The notes beneath the pieces were generated by a model. It saw only the letters and a list, made by a program, of their open reading frames with translations, was not told the DNA's origin and ran no database searches. A program made the position numbers and the translations under genes. Of a stretch of DNA of 64,000 nucleotides, positions 5,093 to 38,289 are shown in pieces (the first letter of the stretch is position 1; every line of letters begins with the position of its first letter). The stretch is from Methanoregulaceae archaeon (GTDB lineage: Archaea > Halobacteriota > Methanomicrobia > Methanomicrobiales > Methanospirillaceae). Location of the stretch: the NCBI GenBank assembly GCA_021371995.1, contig JAJFVA010000020.1, positions 1 to 64,000 of the forward strand, written 5' to 3'.

Positions 5093-6105
5093 CAGGTCTC
5101 CTCTGAAAGAAGATCCCCAACCACCTGGTCAGGAGAGAAAGGGGTCAGGTCATCATATCCCTGCCCGGTGCCGAGAAACATCAGGGGTTTTCCTATGGTA
5201 TGTGCTATCGATATCGCGGCACCGCCTTTCGGGTCCATATCTGCCTTTGTGAGGACCACGGCATCGGCACCCACCGCTTTTTCAAACTCGTGTGCCCGGA
5301 CCACGGCATCATTCCCTGCAACCGCTTCATCCACATACACGATAAGATCAGGTTTCATGACCCGGCGTATCTTGTCAAGCTGGTTCATGAGGTTCACCCG
5401 GTTATGGAATCTCCCTGCGGTATCAGCAAGAACGGCATCGATATGGTGCGACTCTGCATACTGGACGGCGTCATACAGGACTGCTGAAGGATCACCCCCG
5501 GCCTGGTGCTGGATAATTTTGATTCCAAGGCGTTGTGCGTGGACATCGATCTGTTCCAGTGCGCCGGCACGAAACGTATCTCCCGCCCCAATGACTACAG
5601 AAAAGCCGTTCTTCTTCAGGTACGATCCTACCTTGGCAACCGTGGTGGTCTTCCCCGTGCCATTCACTCCGGTGAAAAGTATCTTGACCGGCCTGTCGTG
5701 GGATCTGATGTAGGAGACCAGGTCGAAGCCTTCACCGAGAACATCGAGAAGTGCATCACGGAGCGCAGTGGTTACGATGGTATCGACAGGCTCGCCGATT
5801 TTCCTGCGGCTGCCCGCAAGATCCTTCCTGATGTGGCTGATGATCTCTTCGGTGACAGGGAGAGCTACATCATTTTCGAGAAGGACCATCTCGAGCTCAA
5901 AGAGCGGCTCTCTGATATCTTTTTCATCAATCAGGAATTCGCGGTCGGTGATGAGGACTTTTACTTTTCCAAGAATCGTTGCGCCCTTCTCTTTATCCGC
6001 AGCGGGCTCTGACTGAGGAATACCCTCTACATCGGATGCAGATTCGATGCTCTGGGAAAGCCCTTCCTGGATCTTATGGAGCTTCGCACGGAGCTCTTTA
6101 AACAT
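5092..6105 (-). CDS. ftsY: Signal recognition particle receptor FtsY
   Basis: The SRP receptor GTPase. It docks the SRP-ribosome complex at the membrane through a reciprocal GTPase interaction with SRP54. The 337-residue protein has a short charged N-terminal A region (about 1-60), an N domain, then a G domain with P-loop [10 protein letters not shown] (146-155), DTAGR and [11 protein letters not shown]. The start is the ATG at 6105, 18 bases after pfdA. Clustering with srp54, prefoldin and ribosomal genes matches the euryarchaeal superoperon. Confidence 0.98.
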
Positions 6106-6123
6106 ACCGATGATTCTCCCCGG

Positions 6124-6600
6124 TCACTCTTCCCCTGCTCTCGGACCAGGCACCGCCTGCACCTGCGCCATCTGTGCCTGCTGGTATCCAATCTCAATTC
6201 TTCGGGCGATCTCGTTCATCTGCCCGTGAAGACGGTCGAGTGTCTCAGCAACCTTCTTTGCCGAGGCCTCCATCTCGGTGATACGGTCTTTCAGGTAGTC
6301 CTGCGCAGCCGTATTTGATTTCTCCACGATGACTTCTGCCCCGATGTTGAGGAGAACGCGATCCGGGTCAAGGATGCGGGCACGGACACTTACCCCACCC
6401 CCGATCTGGAGAAGGACAACACTTTCGGGCGATGCTGCGGCACCTCCGAGTGCCTCGATTGCGGCAATCGCCTCCATCCTGCCCTGCTCGAGGAGCGAGA
6501 GCTGCTGGGTAAAGATCTCAGCCTGCTGCCGGTATTCGTTCAGGTACAGCTGAAGGGACTGGATCTCCCGCGGGTCCACGTGATCCACGTTATTCACCAT
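6124..6600 (-). CDS. pfdA: Prefoldin subunit alpha
   Basis: One of the two subunits of the hexameric archaeal prefoldin, which captures unfolded nascent chains and passes them to the thermosome. The 158-residue protein has the expected architecture: an N-terminal helix rich in Q and L (about 10-45), a beta hairpin region (GGAAASPESVVLLQIGGGVSVRARI), then a long C-terminal coiled-coil helix (about 100-150). It overlaps the L18a/LX gene by 11 bases. The C-terminal tail PGPRAGEE is a short low-complexity extension of no clear role. Confidence 0.95.
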   Translation of the reverse strand: MVNNVDHVDPREIQSLQLYLNEYRQQAEIFTQQLSLLEQGRMEAIAAIEALGGAAASPESVVLLQIGGGVSVRARILDPDRVLLNIGAEVIVEKSNTAAQDYLKDRITEMEASAKKVAETLDRLHGQMNEIARRIEIGYQQAQMAQVQAVPGPRAGEE

Positions 6601-6784
6601 TCACAGCATCAACGGCATTTACGGTAATATACCTTCGTTTCAGGCGGTGCTTGCTCCCGATTACCGCGAAGGTGCGCTCTTTTGCCTGTACCGCATTGGG
6701 CGCCTCGATCACCTTGCTGTAGGGATGCCATTCATCCCCAATCATGAAGGTTCCCTTTACTTCAAATTTCATGTTTTGCATCAT
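6590..6784 (-). CDS. rpl18a: 50S ribosomal protein L18Ae (LX)
   Basis: A 64-residue archaeal LX protein, the short homologue of eukaryotic L18a, at the large-subunit surface. The core reads FEVKGTFMIGDEWHPYSK and later RLKRRYITV, typical of the family. The first ATG (6784) shares its A with the TAA of eif6 (TAATG). A further ATG follows immediately and another lies at residue 5 (MKFEVKG); the latter matches most homologue starts better, so the true start may be 6772. It is part of the minus-strand translation convoy. Confidence 0.94.
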   Translation of the reverse strand: MMQNMKFEVKGTFMIGDEWHPYSKVIEAPNAVQAKERTFAVIGSKHRLKRRYITVNAVDAVNGE

Positions 6785-7449
6785 TATCTCTCCAGAAATC
6801 CAAATACATCCTCAATTCTTCCAAGTTCGAACCCGGTGGTTTCCAGCCCGGCCACATATCCGCGTGAGTTCGCAAGAAGGCCGGTCCCGACAAGACCGCT
6901 CCCCATGTTAACTGACCCGGTTCCAATAGGAAGGCTCGTCAGGCTTTCGAGCCGGGCCAGTTCATGGTGGGACGCGCGGGGATGAACCATGATTCCGCGG
7001 CTGGATGCAACCGCTGCCATTCCCACCGTCTTTATCCCGGCCAGGGTGGTCCTGTGCACGGGAGTCTTTAACACCTCACCAACATCCTTTGCCATCTGTT
7101 CAGGCATATCAGGGTGGACCAGGGCAAGGGAATCATTGGCAAGAATGATATTTCCTGCTGCATTCATCGTATGCTCAAGCAGAAAGATTTCACGGTATTC
7201 AGAAAGCCTTGCGATCTCATTCTCATCTGCAAAGCCGCTCACCACAAACCCGTGCCGGTTTCCTGCAAGAAGAGACCCGATGATCTCGCTCCCCTGAAGG
7301 GTGGTCTCAACTATCTCCACGCCAAGGATTCCGGCAAGTGCCTCACGGAAATCCTCATTCGCTGTGGGAGGGACCACGGCAATGTCATCAAAAACCCTGG
7401 CGAATACGCCGATATTTGAATCACCGCCAAACGAGACCGTTTTTTCCAT
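6784..7449 (-). CDS. eif6: Translation initiation factor 6 (aIF-6)
   Basis: The archaeal anti-association factor. It binds the 50S subunit and prevents premature joining with 30S. The pentein-fold sequence begins MEKTVSFGGDSNIGVFARV, the canonical start of the family, so the start is set at 7449 rather than at an upstream in-frame codon that would run into rpl31e. The length of 221 residues is usual. Repeated GNRHGFVVS, LANDSLALVHPDM and SRGIMVHP segments mark successive pentein repeats. Only one base separates it from the rpl31e stop. Confidence 0.97.
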   Translation of the reverse strand: MEKTVSFGGDSNIGVFARVFDDIAVVPPTANEDFREALAGILGVEIVETTLQGSEIIGSLLAGNRHGFVVSGFADENEIARLSEYREIFLLEHTMNAAGNIILANDSLALVHPDMPEQMAKDVGEVLKTPVHRTTLAGIKTVGMAAVASSRGIMVHPRASHHELARLESLTSLPIGTGSVNMGSGLVGTGLLANSRGYVAGLETTGFELGRIEDVFGFLER

Positions 7450-7450
7450 A

Positions 7451-7714
7451 TCATTCCTCGGCAAGTTCAGCCTGGACCTGCCCGTCGTCAAATTTCATGG
7501 CGCGGACACGCACACGGGATGGCGGGTTCTCTGCACCCCGGTCCCAGATCTTTTCATTGATGCTCCTGTCAAGCTTAACATCAGTACTCTTCAGGTGCCT
7601 CTCAAGGTACTTCCGGATATCCTTTATTGCCGTGTGGCTCCTCTTCCACCGCGGTGCACGACGTGCGTCGCGGAGAGGGATGATGTAAATCTGTTCCTTT
7701 GTCTTTTCCGCCAT
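7451..7714 (-). CDS. rpl31e: 50S ribosomal protein L31e
   Basis: An 87-residue large-subunit protein located near the polypeptide exit tunnel in archaea and eukaryotes. The family hallmarks are intact: [16 protein letters not shown], then [16 protein letters not shown] and the [19 protein letters not shown] segment. It lies 4 bases after rpl39e and one base before eif6. The L39e-L31e-eIF6-LX order is conserved across euryarchaea. Confidence 0.98.
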
Positions 7715-7718
7715 GTTC

Positions 7719-7871
7719 TTACACCTTCAGGGCGCTCCGTCTCCAGTTACGGCGCCGCGGATGGGCGACCACTGCACGCTTTGTGCGGAGCATCACCCAT
7801 TGCGGAACCCGCCTGTTCTGTTCACACGCCTTTGCGAGTCTCATCTTGAAACCTTTTGTGGATTTACTCAT
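7719..7871 (-). CDS. rpl39e: 50S ribosomal protein L39e
   Basis: A very short basic protein of 50 residues that lines the peptide exit tunnel. I translated it directly from the minus strand: it begins [20 protein letters not shown] and ends [11 protein letters not shown], with the family signature RVPQW followed by a basic tail containing HPRRRNWRR. The start ATG is at 7871 and the stop at 7719. It sits 4 bases before rpl31e and 2 bases after the PP-loop gene. Genes this short are easily missed in automatic annotation. Confidence 0.97.
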
Positions 7872-7873
7872 AC

Positions 7874-8479
7874 TTATTTCACCTCTGTTCCTGGTTCAGC
7901 CCGCGAGAGAACAAGTGACTGCTGGTGATCCTGTGGGAAAAATGCCCGGGGATCAAGACCCCTCTCTGCAATTCCGCCCCGGATCCCGCCTTCATAGTCA
8001 CCGTTCGCGATCTGCCCCGTCTGCCCATTGGCGATAATAAAGTGGCGGCGGGCAAGCCGGTCCACCTCTTTTCTCCCGTACCCGAGGAGAGGCCTGATGT
8101 AGGAGCACCCGGTCCTGTCCTGGAAGCTCTGTGCCTCGTCCCGTGAAAGCATCGGAACACGGTCATCCATGCGTGTCCCATCAGCCACGACCGGATAGTC
8201 ATGGCACACCATTTCCATCGCCTGGCGATGGACATGCTGTATCGCATCATTCGGGTATCCGCATGTAATGACCATTTCAACGACCTTTTCTAAAAAACCC
8301 TCTTCAAAGATCCTTCTCTTCCACGGGAGACCTGTGGCACGGGCCGCGTTTTCGACCGCATGGGTCTCGTCTCTGGCGGAGAAGACGAAGGTGTTCAGCT
8401 CGACTTCATAGTCACGGGAGAGAAGAAGCGCTGCAAGGGCACTGTCTTTTCCACCGGAAAAGAGCACCCCGGCCTTCAT
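7874..8479 (-). CDS. PP-loop ATPase-family protein (adenine nucleotide alpha-hydrolase fold)
   Basis: A 201-residue protein with a perfect N-terminal PP-loop SGGKDS (about 8-13), the pyrophosphate-binding motif of N-type ATP pyrophosphatases. That superfamily includes tRNA thiolases, diphthamide ligase and QueC. No CxxC cluster of the thiolase type is visible, so I do not assign a reaction. Conserved-looking segments are [13 protein letters not shown] and [14 protein letters not shown]. It is sandwiched between rpl39e (2 bases) and the PDCD5 gene (4-base overlap), so a role in ribosome or tRNA modification is plausible but inferred. Confidence 0.85.
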
Positions 8480-33734: not shown

Positions 33735-35918
33735 TCATGCCTGGATCCTTGTTTCAGAGGAGACCCAGTCTGAGATTCTCTTGTTATCAGGTCTGAACTC
33801 CCGGAACTGCCTGAGAGAGACAGTCAGATCTCTTGTAAAGGCAAAATATCCTATCTGGGTACTCCGGCAGAGCTTCATCGCCATGTCCATCAATCCGCCC
33901 GGGTCAGGCCGCTGCTCCCCAAGCCAGATATGGAAAATATTACCCCCATCAACAATAGGGAAGAAAACGTGTTCAATCTCCATCCGTCTGGCAAGCGGAA
34001 TATTGGCAGAGGGAGCGACATGAGTGCCGTTTGTGTAGTATATGGGAAGATCCCTGCTCTTCCCAAGCATCTCAAGGCCTTGTTCGAGATCGCCTTTGAT
34101 GACCTTCCGGGCAGAGTCGCGATACTCCTTTGAGAGGAGATCGGCAACCGCAAACCGCTGACCCGTGGTCTCTGCAGGTGTCCTGGCGAGCGCGATGGTC
34201 ATGTTGTTCCTGGCTGATAACTCCTTTGCGTAGAGTTCCATCTCTGTCATCGCCCTGATGGCAAGTGCCCATGCCTCATGTGATTCATGAAGCTGGTGGC
34301 CTGTATGGTGCTGCACCATCTCGTTGACACCGACAACACCGATGGTATACACAAGCCCGTCAAGATCGACTGCGATTGCTCCCCGCTCCCCGGTTACCGG
34401 ATCCTTGGGCCGCTGCATTGCAAACGGCATCCGCCCGTTGGCACGGATGATTTCAAGCCAGCGCCGCTTGATCTTGAACACCTCGACGCAGACATCCATC
34501 AGTGCCCTCAATTCGGCATAAAGGCGCTTGTCATCCCCTCCCGCCTCGTAACCAGCGCGGGGACAATTGAGAGACACCACCTGCCAGGAGCCCATCGAAA
34601 AGTGCTTCCCGTCACGGAAAACAAGCTTGTCCTCAAACTGGGTATCTTCATCTGCGACTGCAGAGAACTGGTAGGCACAGCACTGGTAGCAGGAGATCCC
34701 CTTCCCGGCGCCACGATAATCCGGTATCTGGTTATCGTAGTAGGGTGTCCCGAACTTGGATGCAAGCTCAAAAGTGAGCAGGTAGAGGTCCCTGTAGGTA
34801 GGAAGATCAGGGTGGTTCTGGTTAAACTCCTGATCTTCCTCCATGAAGTCAGGTTCGATGCTTATCTCCGGTTTGGGGAAACTGAACGGCTTACCCCAGT
34901 AATCACCTTCGAGCATCACCTCCATAAGCGCTTTGAAGAGGAGGCGCACCTCGCGTTCGAACTGCCCATAAGTACGGAGCGGGGCAGAGCTTCCGTCCCA
35001 TATCTTCCCCTTGTAGACACAGGGCTTGTCCTTCCAGAGCATCGGTACCCCTGGTGAGAGTTGCACAGAAGAGAACACGAGCTGTCCACCCCTGGCAACC
35101 ATCATCTGCGTCATCTCGTACACGAACATCTGCATGTGCTGGCGGATCTCAGCATAGGGCATCCCATCAAAGAACGGCGCGATGAACGTCAGAAAATTAT
35201 AATACCCCTGCCCGCCGGCAAAATTGGTCTGGGCGCTTCCAAGTGCCTTGACGGCATGAAGGATCGCGACTTCCGGGCGTTTTGCCGGTCCTGCCACTGA
35301 TGCTTTCGTCCCGTTCCCGTCAGGCATCAGGCCATAATAGAGGAAATAGCGGAGATCCCAGTCCTGACAGAACGGTCGCGTTCCAAAGTATTCCAGATCA
35401 TGGATGTGGATATCTCCAAACAGGTGATGATCGGCAAGGTGGGGAGGGAGCTGGAGCAGGTACTGCTCCTTGCTGATCTTGTCTGCCTTCTTTTTATGTG
35501 AGGTTTCCGCATTTTCCTGGAGATTTGCATTATCCTTGGCTTCAAATCCCCGTCCCACGTCGATAAGGTGTGCATCAAAAACCGGGGTCCCTACCCGGGT
35601 GCAGACATTGCGGTACTGTACCATTCCCTGTTCAAGGAGTGTGATATTCACGATCTCCCTGATCAGGGGCCCGGAGAGCGCTTTTAGCCGGAGCGAACAG
35701 ATCCGCTCCTCAACAAGCCGGGCAATCTCCTGGGCAGTATCCTCATTCGCGCTCTCGTAGCCATAGAAAGTCTCCACCAGCTTGGTCTCTTCAATGATCT
35801 GGCGGACGATTCTCTGCCTGTCCCATTCAACGATGTGGCCGTCCGATGTACGGACAGGCGGCATCTGTGGAACAAAAATGCCATCAAGAGTGGTCTGCAG
35901 GCTCTTTCTGTCCAGCAT
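33735..35918 (-). CDS. nrdD: Anaerobic ribonucleoside-triphosphate reductase NrdD homologue lacking the glycyl-radical end
   Basis: Class III ribonucleotide reductases make dNTPs under anoxia. The 727-residue protein has an N-terminal ATP-cone (about 23-110) and the barrel with HIHDLEYFGTRPFCQDW (about 171-187). CYQCCAYQFS (410-419) holds the likely thiyl-radical cysteine region, followed by SLNCPRAGY and VGVNEMVQHHTG. After YFAFTRDLTV (691-700) only 27 residues remain. They contain no Cys, whereas family members there carry a CxxC...CxxC zinc site and an R-x-x-G-Y glycyl-radical motif. The neighbouring frames do not restore it. NrdG is not in the window. Confidence 0.9.
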   Translation of the reverse strand: MLDRKSLQTTLDGIFVPQMPPVRTSDGHIVEWDRQRIVRQIIEETKLVETFYGYESANEDTAQEIARLVEERICSLRLKALSGPLIREIVNITLLEQGMVQYRNVCTRVGTPVFDAHLIDVGRGFEAKDNANLQENAETSHKKKADKISKEQYLLQLPPHLADHHLFGDIHIHDLEYFGTRPFCQDWDLRYFLYYGLMPDGNGTKASVAGPAKRPEVAILHAVKALGSAQTNFAGGQGYYNFLTFIAPFFDGMPYAEIRQHMQMFVYEMTQMMVARGGQLVFSSVQLSPGVPMLWKDKPCVYKGKIWDGSSAPLRTYGQFEREVRLLFKALMEVMLEGDYWGKPFSFPKPEISIEPDFMEEDQEFNQNHPDLPTYRDLYLLTFELASKFGTPYYDNQIPDYRGAGKGISCYQCCAYQFSAVADEDTQFEDKLVFRDGKHFSMGSWQVVSLNCPRAGYEAGGDDKRLYAELRALMDVCVEVFKIKRRWLEIIRANGRMPFAMQRPKDPVTGERGAIAVDLDGLVYTIGVVGVNEMVQHHTGHQLHESHEAWALAIRAMTEMELYAKELSARNNMTIALARTPAETTGQRFAVADLLSKEYRDSARKVIKGDLEQGLEMLGKSRDLPIYYTNGTHVAPSANIPLARRMEIEHVFFPIVDGGNIFHIWLGEQRPDPGGLMDMAMKLCRSTQIGYFAFTRDLTVSLRQFREFRPDNKRISDWVSSETRIQA

Positions 35919-36187
35919 CAGGAGCCCTCTGATAATTTCTGCACACGCTCTTCCCGAAGAGCCCCCCCGGAAAAGAGATCCCGGGACGTAAGAAACCCTC
36001 CCGCACCACGGAGTACCGGGGCTTCATTGACGAATACGCCGTTAATGCGGAGTTCAGTGAGAGATTCGGCCGTTGACATATCCTTTTCGTTAAAAGGGAT
36101 ATGGTTACGGATCAGATATTCCTTCAGTAGTTCACAGTTCGGACAATATTCAAGCGTATAAACAACCAGCTTTGTTGTATCTGCCAA
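35918..36187 (-). CDS. Glutaredoxin/NrdH-like redox protein
   Basis: An 89-residue thioredoxin-fold protein upstream of and overlapping nrdD. It has the active site YCPNC (Cys-15 and Cys-18) and the cis-proline segment EAPVLRG. The start is set at a TTG (36187-36185): a G-rich GGGGGGG run (36192-36198) stands at Shine-Dalgarno distance, while the long upstream frame is unlike the family. In class III reductases of methanogens a NrdH-type redoxin can supply electrons instead of formate, so it is probably the reductant of the adjacent NrdD. Confidence 0.82.
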   Translation of the reverse strand: MADTTKLVVYTLEYCPNCELLKEYLIRNHIPFNEKDMSTAESLTELRINGVFVNEAPVLRGAGGFLTSRDLFSGGALREERVQKLSEGS

Positions 36188-36364: not shown

Positions 36365-36907
36365 GTGGTTCGTCTTTTTGTGGCAATAGATCTCCCTGAA
36401 GATATCCGGGAGCGCCTGGGTGGTCCGCAGGATTATCTGAAAAAAAGCAGTGCACGGCTGAACCTTGTTGATCCAGCGCTTATCCATATGACCCTGAAAT
36501 TCATCGGAGAGGTAGATAACGATGCCGTCGGGAAAATCAGTTCTGTGCTTTCCAGCATCACATTTTCACCCTATATCCTCCATATTACGGGAATAGGCAC
36601 CAACAACCCGCGGCAGCCCCGGGTAATATGGTGTGAAATTGCTGATGGCGGCGGGAGCGCCGCGCTCCACGCAACGGTGGAAAACGCCCTTGCACCGCTT
36701 GGCATTCCCCGTGATGACCGCCCCTTCAGGCCCCATGCCACCCTTGCAAGGGTAAAGCAGTCCGATTCTTCCCTTCCAGGTTGGATCCTGGCAATCCCTC
36801 CAGGAAATTTAGGTATGTGCACAGTAACGGAGTTCAGGCTTAAGAAAAGTACGCTCACTCCCCGCGGACCTGTCTATGAGACGCTGCTGGAGGTCCCGGC
36901 ATCATGA
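36365..36907 (+). CDS. thpR: RNA 2',3'-cyclic 3'-phosphodiesterase ThpR (LigT)
   Basis: A 2H-superfamily phosphoesterase opening 2',3'-cyclic phosphates, or ligating 2'-5' bonds, on RNA ends. The 180-residue protein has both active motifs: HMTLKF (His-41, Thr-43) and HATLAR (His-124, Thr-126). The start is a GTG at 36365 preceded by AAGGAG. Its stop overlaps the ATG of cca (ATGA), so the two tRNA 3'-end enzymes are coupled. Confidence 0.95.
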   Translation: MVRLFVAIDLPEDIRERLGGPQDYLKKSSARLNLVDPALIHMTLKFIGEVDNDAVGKISSVLSSITFSPYILHITGIGTNNPRQPRVIWCEIADGGGSAALHATVENALAPLGIPRDDRPFRPHATLARVKQSDSSLPGWILAIPPGNLGMCTVTEFRLKKSTLTPRGPVYETLLEVPAS

Positions 36908-38289
36908 GGAGTCCGCTCGAGGAGTCCGTGCTCTCGGTAATCAGGCCGGCCCGTGAAGAAAAGGATCACATCGCACGTGTCGCTGAAAAGATCATAAAAA
37001 CCACAGTCATACAAGGCGGAGCAGATCCAATGATAGTCGGGTCTGTCGCCCGGGGAACCTTCATCCACGGGGACAGAGACCTGGACATCTTCCTTCTCTT
37101 TGATCCCGCTCTCTCGCGTGAAGAGCTTGAGGAGGAAGGACTCCGGCTTGCCCGAAGCATTGCCGAGGAATTGTCAGACGGTTATTTCGAGAAGTATGCC
37201 GAGCACCCTTATATCAGTGCCACCATTGAAGGGTTCGATGTGGACCTTGTCCCCTGTTTCCGGGTGGAATCTGCATCAGCAATCCGGTCATCTGTCGATC
37301 GCACCCCGTTTCATACCCGCTATATCGGGACAAAGATCAGCCCGCTCGTAGATGATGTGCTTCTCGTTAAGCAGTTTACCAAAGCAGGAGGGGTTTATGG
37401 CTCTGACCAGATGACGGAAGGTTTTTCAGGATATCTCTGCGAGCTGCTCATCCTCTATTATGGAGGGTTTTCTGCCCTTGTCGAAGCGGCAGCAGAGTGG
37501 AAGCCCGGGACCCTCATCGATCTGGAAGAGCATAGGACAAAGGAGTTTACCGAACCCCTCATAGTCATTGACCCGGTGGACCCGGGGAGAAACGTTTCAG
37601 CATCCGTATCACTCGACCGGATGTATGAATTTGTAGAGCTTGCACGGGGTTATCTCAACGCCCCTTCACGCTTGTTCTTTTTCCCTCCCGGAGAACCCGT
37701 ACTTACTTGCGAAGAACTCATCTCAAGGATCAATTTGAAGGGTACCTACCTGTATGCGATAACTTTTGCCACCCCGCCGTATATCCCGGACGTGGTTGTC
37801 CCGCAGCTCAGGAGAAGCCTGGACTCTATTAAGGGGCTTTTGGAGAGAAACGGATTTAGTGTCAACAGCACCGGCTGCGAGATGTTTGATGCCCGCTGTA
37901 TTCTCCTCTTTGAACTGGATGCCGAGCAGGTTCCGCGTACCCACAGGCATATCGGGCCTCCTCTATGGAACAGGACCAATGCCGACAGGTTCTTTGAGAA
38001 ATACATGACCGGGAGCAGTCCGGGCATCTCTGGCGGCCCGTACATTCAAAACGGCCGTTATGTCGTGGAGATACAGCGCAGATATACCCATGCTGCCGAT
38101 CTCCTCGGTTCCTCTGAAGTGCTGGAAGTAGGGCTTGGGCGGCACGTACGCCAGTCCATGATCGGGCACTGGGAGGTATGTTCCGGTGGAGAGTGCTGGT
38201 CTTCCGAATTCGCCCCGTTCCTGTCGCGGTTTATCGGGCGGCAGTCACCGGTAGCAAGGATATTGGGAAATGAAGGGAACCTAGGATAG
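36904..38289 (+). CDS. cca: CCA tRNA nucleotidyltransferase (archaeal class I)
   Basis: Adds or repairs the 3'-terminal CCA of tRNAs without a template. The 461-residue protein is of usual archaeal length. It has the polymerase beta motif VGSVARGTFIHGDRDLDIF (Gly-46, Ser-47, Asp-59, Asp-61), a third carboxylate in GFDVDLVPCF, and archaeal-type body and tail domains. The tRNA-Leu in this window lacks encoded CCA, so the enzyme is required. It is translationally coupled to thpR. Confidence 0.97.
   Translation: MRSPLEESVLSVIRPAREEKDHIARVAEKIIKTTVIQGGADPMIVGSVARGTFIHGDRDLDIFLLFDPALSREELEEEGLRLARSIAEELSDGYFEKYAEHPYISATIEGFDVDLVPCFRVESASAIRSSVDRTPFHTRYIGTKISPLVDDVLLVKQFTKAGGVYGSDQMTEGFSGYLCELLILYYGGFSALVEAAAEWKPGTLIDLEEHRTKEFTEPLIVIDPVDPGRNVSASVSLDRMYEFVELARGYLNAPSRLFFFPPGEPVLTCEELISRINLKGTYLYAITFATPPYIPDVVVPQLRRSLDSIKGLLERNGFSVNSTGCEMFDARCILLFELDAEQVPRTHRHIGPPLWNRTNADRFFEKYMTGSSPGISGGPYIQNGRYVVEIQRRYTHAADLLGSSEVLEVGLGRHVRQSMIGHWEVCSGGECWSSEFAPFLSRFIGRQSPVARILGNEGNLG

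Follow-up and report, generated by a model that had tools for sequence, protein, structure and literature searches.

The nrdD gene analysed here very probably encodes the catalytic subunit of a two-chain class III ribonucleotide reductase (RNR), an oxygen-sensitive type of enzyme that makes DNA building blocks, with the radical-bearing end residing on a separate protein of 120 residues. The gene lies in a 64,000-nucleotide stretch of a Methanoregulaceae archaeon genome (contig JAJFVA010000020.1, positions 1 to 64,000, hereafter the window), and the genome is available as a 43-contig assembly. The features discussed below are collected in Table 1.

Table 1. Location of the genes, protein regions and motifs of the split NrdD system. 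Coordinates are those of the window unless another contig (C28) or a viral record (L221) is named.
Feature	Position	Strand	Remarks
nrdD catalytic subunit without radical domain, 727 aa	33735..35918	-	ATP-cone-like region and ten-stranded barrel; Pfam, TIGR02487, AF2
ATP-cone region, residues 22-102	35613..35855	-	PF03477 match below cut-off
Cys184, ten residues past the HIHD motif	35367..35369	-	matches T. maritima Cys125 position; alignment-invariant
SCYQCC motif, residues 409-414	34677..34694	-	candidate finger-loop radical cysteine(s); common to complete NrdDs of 64-71% identity
NCPR, residues 451-454	34557..34568	-	possible extra active-site cysteine; also in seven fused archaeal NrdDs
Short tail, residues 701-727	33735..33818	-	at the site of the zinc and glycyl-radical domain in complete NrdD
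nrdH-type glutaredoxin, CPNC	35918..36187	-	likely TTG start; overlaps nrdD
Small radical protein, 120 aa	C28:17243-17605	+	several cysteine pairs/knuckles and an intact SRVTGY
L221 small protein	5484-5780		first in overlapping operon
L221 glutaredoxin	5777-5998		second in overlapping operon
L221 tail-less NrdD	5992-8007		third in overlapping operon; ends in FAFTKDFTVCNNAYRKY

The product of the window gene was identified as the class III RNR NrdD and has the C-terminus GYFAFTRDLTVSLRQFREFRPDNKRISDWVSSETRIQA. It scores 464.6 bits against TIGR02487, above the cut-off, and its match to the Pfam NRDD family (E-value 3e-133) begins at position 1 of the profile and stops at 510, short of the full 562. 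The ATP-cone family (PF03477) is matched at 23.3 bits (E-value 9e-5), just below the curated cut-off of 25.8. An AF2 model of the protein has a pTM of 0.74, and its 36 best PDB matches are class III RNRs; confidence falls past the strand at residues 691-695, with pLDDT below 50 at residues 707-727. The chain ends about 30 residues past the last barrel strand with neither a zinc site nor R-x-x-G-Y, and the motif R-[VIL]-[TSV]-G-Y is absent from all six frames of the whole window. A preliminary description, made from the sequence alone, had noted an ATP-cone and a catalytic barrel, an end devoid of the zinc pair and of the radical motif, and no other frame that restores the motif; the profile and motif searches bear these observations out.

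The barrel is 64-71% identical to those of complete archaeal NrdDs, with which it has Cys184, SCYQCC and NCPR in common (T. maritima numbering in Table 1 after PMC4493059), and C410, C413 and C414 are invariant across 37 aligned sequences. The NrdD3 subtype has a third active-site cysteine and is without the NrdD2 glutamate (PMC4493059); the cysteine of NCPR, placed by alignment, is a candidate for this third residue. Genome G001 encodes, besides its split NrdD, a distant complete NrdD of another type (565 aa, L179:389-2086, 18% identical), which reads NLPK in place of NCPR. The window protein has the NRDD barrel and active-site cysteines that mark a class III RNR, and the zinc and glycyl-radical domain otherwise present on the same chain is found on a separate protein.

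For comparison of NrdD ends, eighty related loci were retrieved. Every Methanomicrobiales NrdD with a readable end (106 read) is tail-less, so that the short end is kept in related genomes, a point that the preliminary description had proposed to check. Five Methanothrix-type NrdDs with 72-73% identity keep the full tail (for example, ISRITGYLQAVSGWNAAKQQELRDRKRY). Past FTRD, 29-37 residues follow in the split genes measured versus 58-62 in 14 fused genes. In 15 of the 106 split genes a cysteine still comes after LTV (LTVC), at the site of the first zinc ligand in fused NrdDs, and is likely a trace of the lost domain. The last 20 or so residues of split NrdDs vary freely among relatives; the proposed resemblance of RISDWVSSE to a remnant of the normal NrdD end is a chance likeness. 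A sequencing error that conceals an ordinary tail, or an internal deletion, had also been raised; errors of assembly or frame would have the same effect, and the assembly is indeed in pieces. However, the whole order has the short end, more than 100 independent genomes agree, single-contig ones included, and R-x-x-G-Y occurs in no frame of the window. We give such an error practically no credence.

An NRDD search of the window's own genome returned two matches: the window gene, which is the only barrel-type NrdD there, and a separate ORF on another contig (C28) that covers profile positions 517-562. No second complete NrdD was found by this search. The tail of the small protein is of the NrdD type, matched by the tail of Pfam NRDD and by TIGR02487 at positions 540-581, and the PFL-type Gly_radical family has no Pfam match in it. 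Its N-terminal cysteine module shows weak Pfam likeness to the double zinc ribbon and TerY-C only. On the solved structure of NrdD from Prevotella copri (8p23), the barrel profile aligns to residues 6-680 and the small-protein profile, which was built from viral homologues, to residues 697-736; judged by these profiles, barrel and small protein together span nearly the whole known NrdD enzyme. When a viral homologue of the small protein was modelled with AF2 from four sequences, the model was of moderate confidence (pLDDT 72) and gave no significant fold match in a Foldseek search against the PDB. The genome also encodes an NrdG-type radical-SAM activase (C21:9456-10031; TIGR02495, 141.3 bits, cut-off 131.15). 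The earlier proposal to look for another nrdD, an nrdG and a small glycyl-radical protein therefore yielded the latter two and no other barrel. The idea that the radical chemistry differs finds no support: the barrel retains its catalytic cysteines, and the genome encodes an ordinary SRVTGY as well as an activase. A radical domain provided by another protein is instead strongly supported by the C28 protein, together with the co-occurrence and the viral operon described below.

NRDD matches were obtained in 126 of 150 genomes of the order, and the co-occurrence count was limited to the 109 genomes that are at least 90% complete. The barrel is present in 97 of these, and the small protein, at high score, in all but one of the 97, a genome of 93% completeness. 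The remaining 12 genomes, all of genus g24, have neither barrel nor small protein (Fisher p 4e-15, which overstates independence, the co-loss being probably in essence one event in one genus). The NrdG-type activase was looked for in eight genomes with a split or fused NrdD and in two barrel-less g24 genomes; all eight have it and neither of the two does. A class I/II-type RNR, on which genus g24 (e.g., G042 and G054) relies, occurs in nearly all of its genomes. In about ten genomes of at least 90% completeness, one of them a single contig, split NrdD and the small gene are present and no class I/II RNR was found; the split enzyme thus seems to be their only RNR and should be functional. A class II-type RNR is additionally encoded in the genome of the window, so NrdD need not be essential there.

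Strong purifying selection acts on the barrel: pairwise comparisons of close relatives give dN/dS values of about 0.03-0.07, and of about 0.07-0.11 for the small gene. These data bear on the reading of the window gene as a decayed paralogue or a pseudogene in progress, which had been put forward at the outset. The essential motif missing from the chain and the additional class II-type RNR in the genome would fit decay, but the short end is fixed order-wide, the catalytic residues are kept, no other barrel-type NrdD is encoded in the genome and the split NrdD is apparently the sole RNR of some ten good genomes. We consider decay very unlikely; by every available sequence test, the split NrdD is functional.

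A search of IMG/VR identified a 135 kb viral record (L221, IMGVR_UViG_3300044712_001062) that carries the split set, and its operon is the strongest evidence linking the small protein with tail-less NrdD. The small protein was also seen on three more viral contigs (L212:3010-3315, L213:2404-2727 and L214:2932-3333); no NrdD barrel was found on these records, which may be fragments, and their small protein is possibly supplied to the host enzyme. The other viral NrdDs (L218-L220, L222 and L223) are fused. In the cellular genomes seen, the small gene never adjoins nrdD. In most loci (36-38 of 44) it is flanked by what we take to be pyrF and a cbiZ-like gene, names that are our reading of the sequences with no database match behind them. 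The lack of linkage in cells, and the coexistence in some relatives of a complete NrdD with a stand-alone homologue, would suit a small protein that is a spare part or regulator of another glycyl radical enzyme, with a tail-less NrdD that works differently or not at all. Nevertheless, its tail is of the NrdD type rather than the PFL type, its loss went together with that of NrdD and NrdG, and in the viral operon it stands beside NrdH and tail-less NrdD, which makes such a role improbable.

Long insertions that keep the reading frame occur around profile positions 53 and 263 in many Methanomicrobiales nrdD genes (e.g., G004, G040 and G052), resulting in open frames of 1,200-2,000 aa; these insertions are probably inteins, and the window gene is free of them. 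Since inteins appear common in nrdD of the order, the two chains could conceivably be joined after translation by protein trans-splicing. Yet an intein domain is matched in neither chain, the barrel ends in a variable tail of 27 residues and the small protein begins with a cysteine-knuckle region, while the viral barrel of L221 stops about nine residues past FTVC. Joining of this kind is thus hardly to be expected, and we retain two separate chains as the preferred reading.

The coupling of nrdD to a glutaredoxin gene, proposed from the window alone, holds: the stop codon of the glutaredoxin gene, which is the upstream gene, overlaps the nrdD start (TGATG). The 189-aa glutaredoxin ORF as listed is over-long, and the likely TTG start at 36187 gives a protein of about 90 aa. 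Matches of this NrdH-type protein to glutaredoxin families are weak and below curated cut-offs. In Methanomicrobiales, 72 loci extend far enough upstream to show the neighbouring gene, and in all 72 an nrdH-type homologue immediately precedes nrdD; the NrdH-like redoxin in the operon that goes with NrdD3 is therefore present throughout these loci. Beside nrdH in the window, positions 36365-38289 hold divergent genes for a LigT-type RNA ligase/phosphoesterase and a CCA-adding enzyme.

We infer the physical assembly of the two chains, the location of the radical and the activity of the complex from sequence. In the proposed mechanism, the NrdG-type radical-SAM activase (C21) would place the glycyl radical on the small protein, whose C-terminal loop would dock into the barrel like the covalent tail of an ordinary NrdD. 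The docked loop would then make the thiyl radical on the finger-loop cysteine, and NrdH, encoded just upstream, would re-reduce the active site. A possible advantage of this arrangement is that only the small chain would have to be discarded after oxygen damage.

In the barrel tree, the split genes lie on one side of a single branch (support 100), so one tail loss is enough to explain them. The viral split barrel forms a long branch, and in a quick tree that included the long-branched viral rows the split barrels did not group; constraining them to a single group nonetheless gave a better-scoring tree (p-AU 0.94) than the unconstrained one. Several relatives from outside the order (family f8, genera g60 and g45, and family f24) have a complete fused NrdD and, in addition, a stand-alone homologue, roughly 118 residues long or longer, with an intact SRVTGY or SRITGY and the same compact CPxC-x4-CPxC knuckle. 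Family f8 is presumably of the Methanosarcinaceae type. One f8 genome (G203, L170:1434-1763) has a stand-alone homologue with RVTGY and a divergent, shortened end, which may be decaying. In trees of the tails, the stand-alone sequences part from the fused ones, with support of 100/100 when all columns are used and of 91/99 for the 44 shared columns. The Methanomicrobiales small proteins form no single clade in the 44-column tree, and the single ancestry of the stand-alone tails is not firmly placed. The trees fit a stand-alone gene that predates the tail loss, with horizontal transfer as a possible alternative. Because fused NrdD and stand-alone homologue coexist in the Methanosarcinaceae-type relatives, the stand-alone gene may, by analogy with GrcA for pyruvate formate-lyase, have begun as a spare part. 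A tentative history, plausible without being the likelier outcome, would start with a spare part for a complete NrdD in the ancestor of Methanomicrobiales and Methanosarcinaceae. Tail loss in Methanomicrobiales would have made the enzyme dependent on this part, which would have become an exchangeable radical subunit, and viruses would carry either the whole split set or just the radical subunit in order to supply or mend the enzyme of their host.

Methanosarcina barkeri reportedly has a class III RNR of the NrdD3 type that goes with NrdH. The window system shares with archaeal NrdD3/NrdDa a similar barrel, the same catalytic cysteines, the upstream NrdH-like gene and the NrdG-type activase; the archaeal enzymes are one chain, whereas here the zinc and glycyl-radical domain is on an unlinked separate gene. 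Validated spare-part glycyl radical proteins are known for pyruvate formate-lyase only (GrcA/YfiD and phage T4 Y06I; PMC8683613, PMC12338860), and the authors of a 2021 paper on GrcA suggest that others may exist (PMC8683613). Like these, the small protein is a stand-alone carrier of the glycyl-radical loop of a larger enzyme and has viral copies. It differs in its cysteine-knuckle N-terminal part and in its tail, which matches NRDD instead of the PFL-type Gly_radical domain. Moreover, the large enzyme of Methanomicrobiales is without a radical domain of its own, which would make the small protein an obligate subunit and not a repair part; genes arranged as for GrcA, with a partner enzyme that keeps its own radical domain, are those of the f8 and f24 relatives. 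In class II NrdJa+b a C-terminal zinc/cysteine domain is likewise encoded by its own gene (PMC5704485), but that enzyme is B12-dependent and the separate part serves re-reduction and holds no radical. RNR chains encoded in pieces are also found in phages (nrdA-a/nrdA-b of Aeh1 and interrupted nrdD genes; PMC3653736), mostly through introns, inteins and homing endonucleases in single phages, unlike the order-wide, fixed split between barrel and radical domain. In the open-access literature searched, we found no report of a split or tail-less NrdD, and the NrdDs described there always have the glycyl radical on the catalytic chain. It seems that an enzyme known until now as a single chain exists here in two parts.

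Annotation pipelines built on one chain will label the catalytic gene as truncated and may miss the small gene. The questions raised here are directly testable, since nature provides a two-chain NrdD, a virus offers an operon that could be expressed as it stands, and some relatives have both forms. If the two-chain reading is true, activation would be separated from catalysis in a class III RNR, which would offer a handle on the oxygen sensitivity of methanogens.
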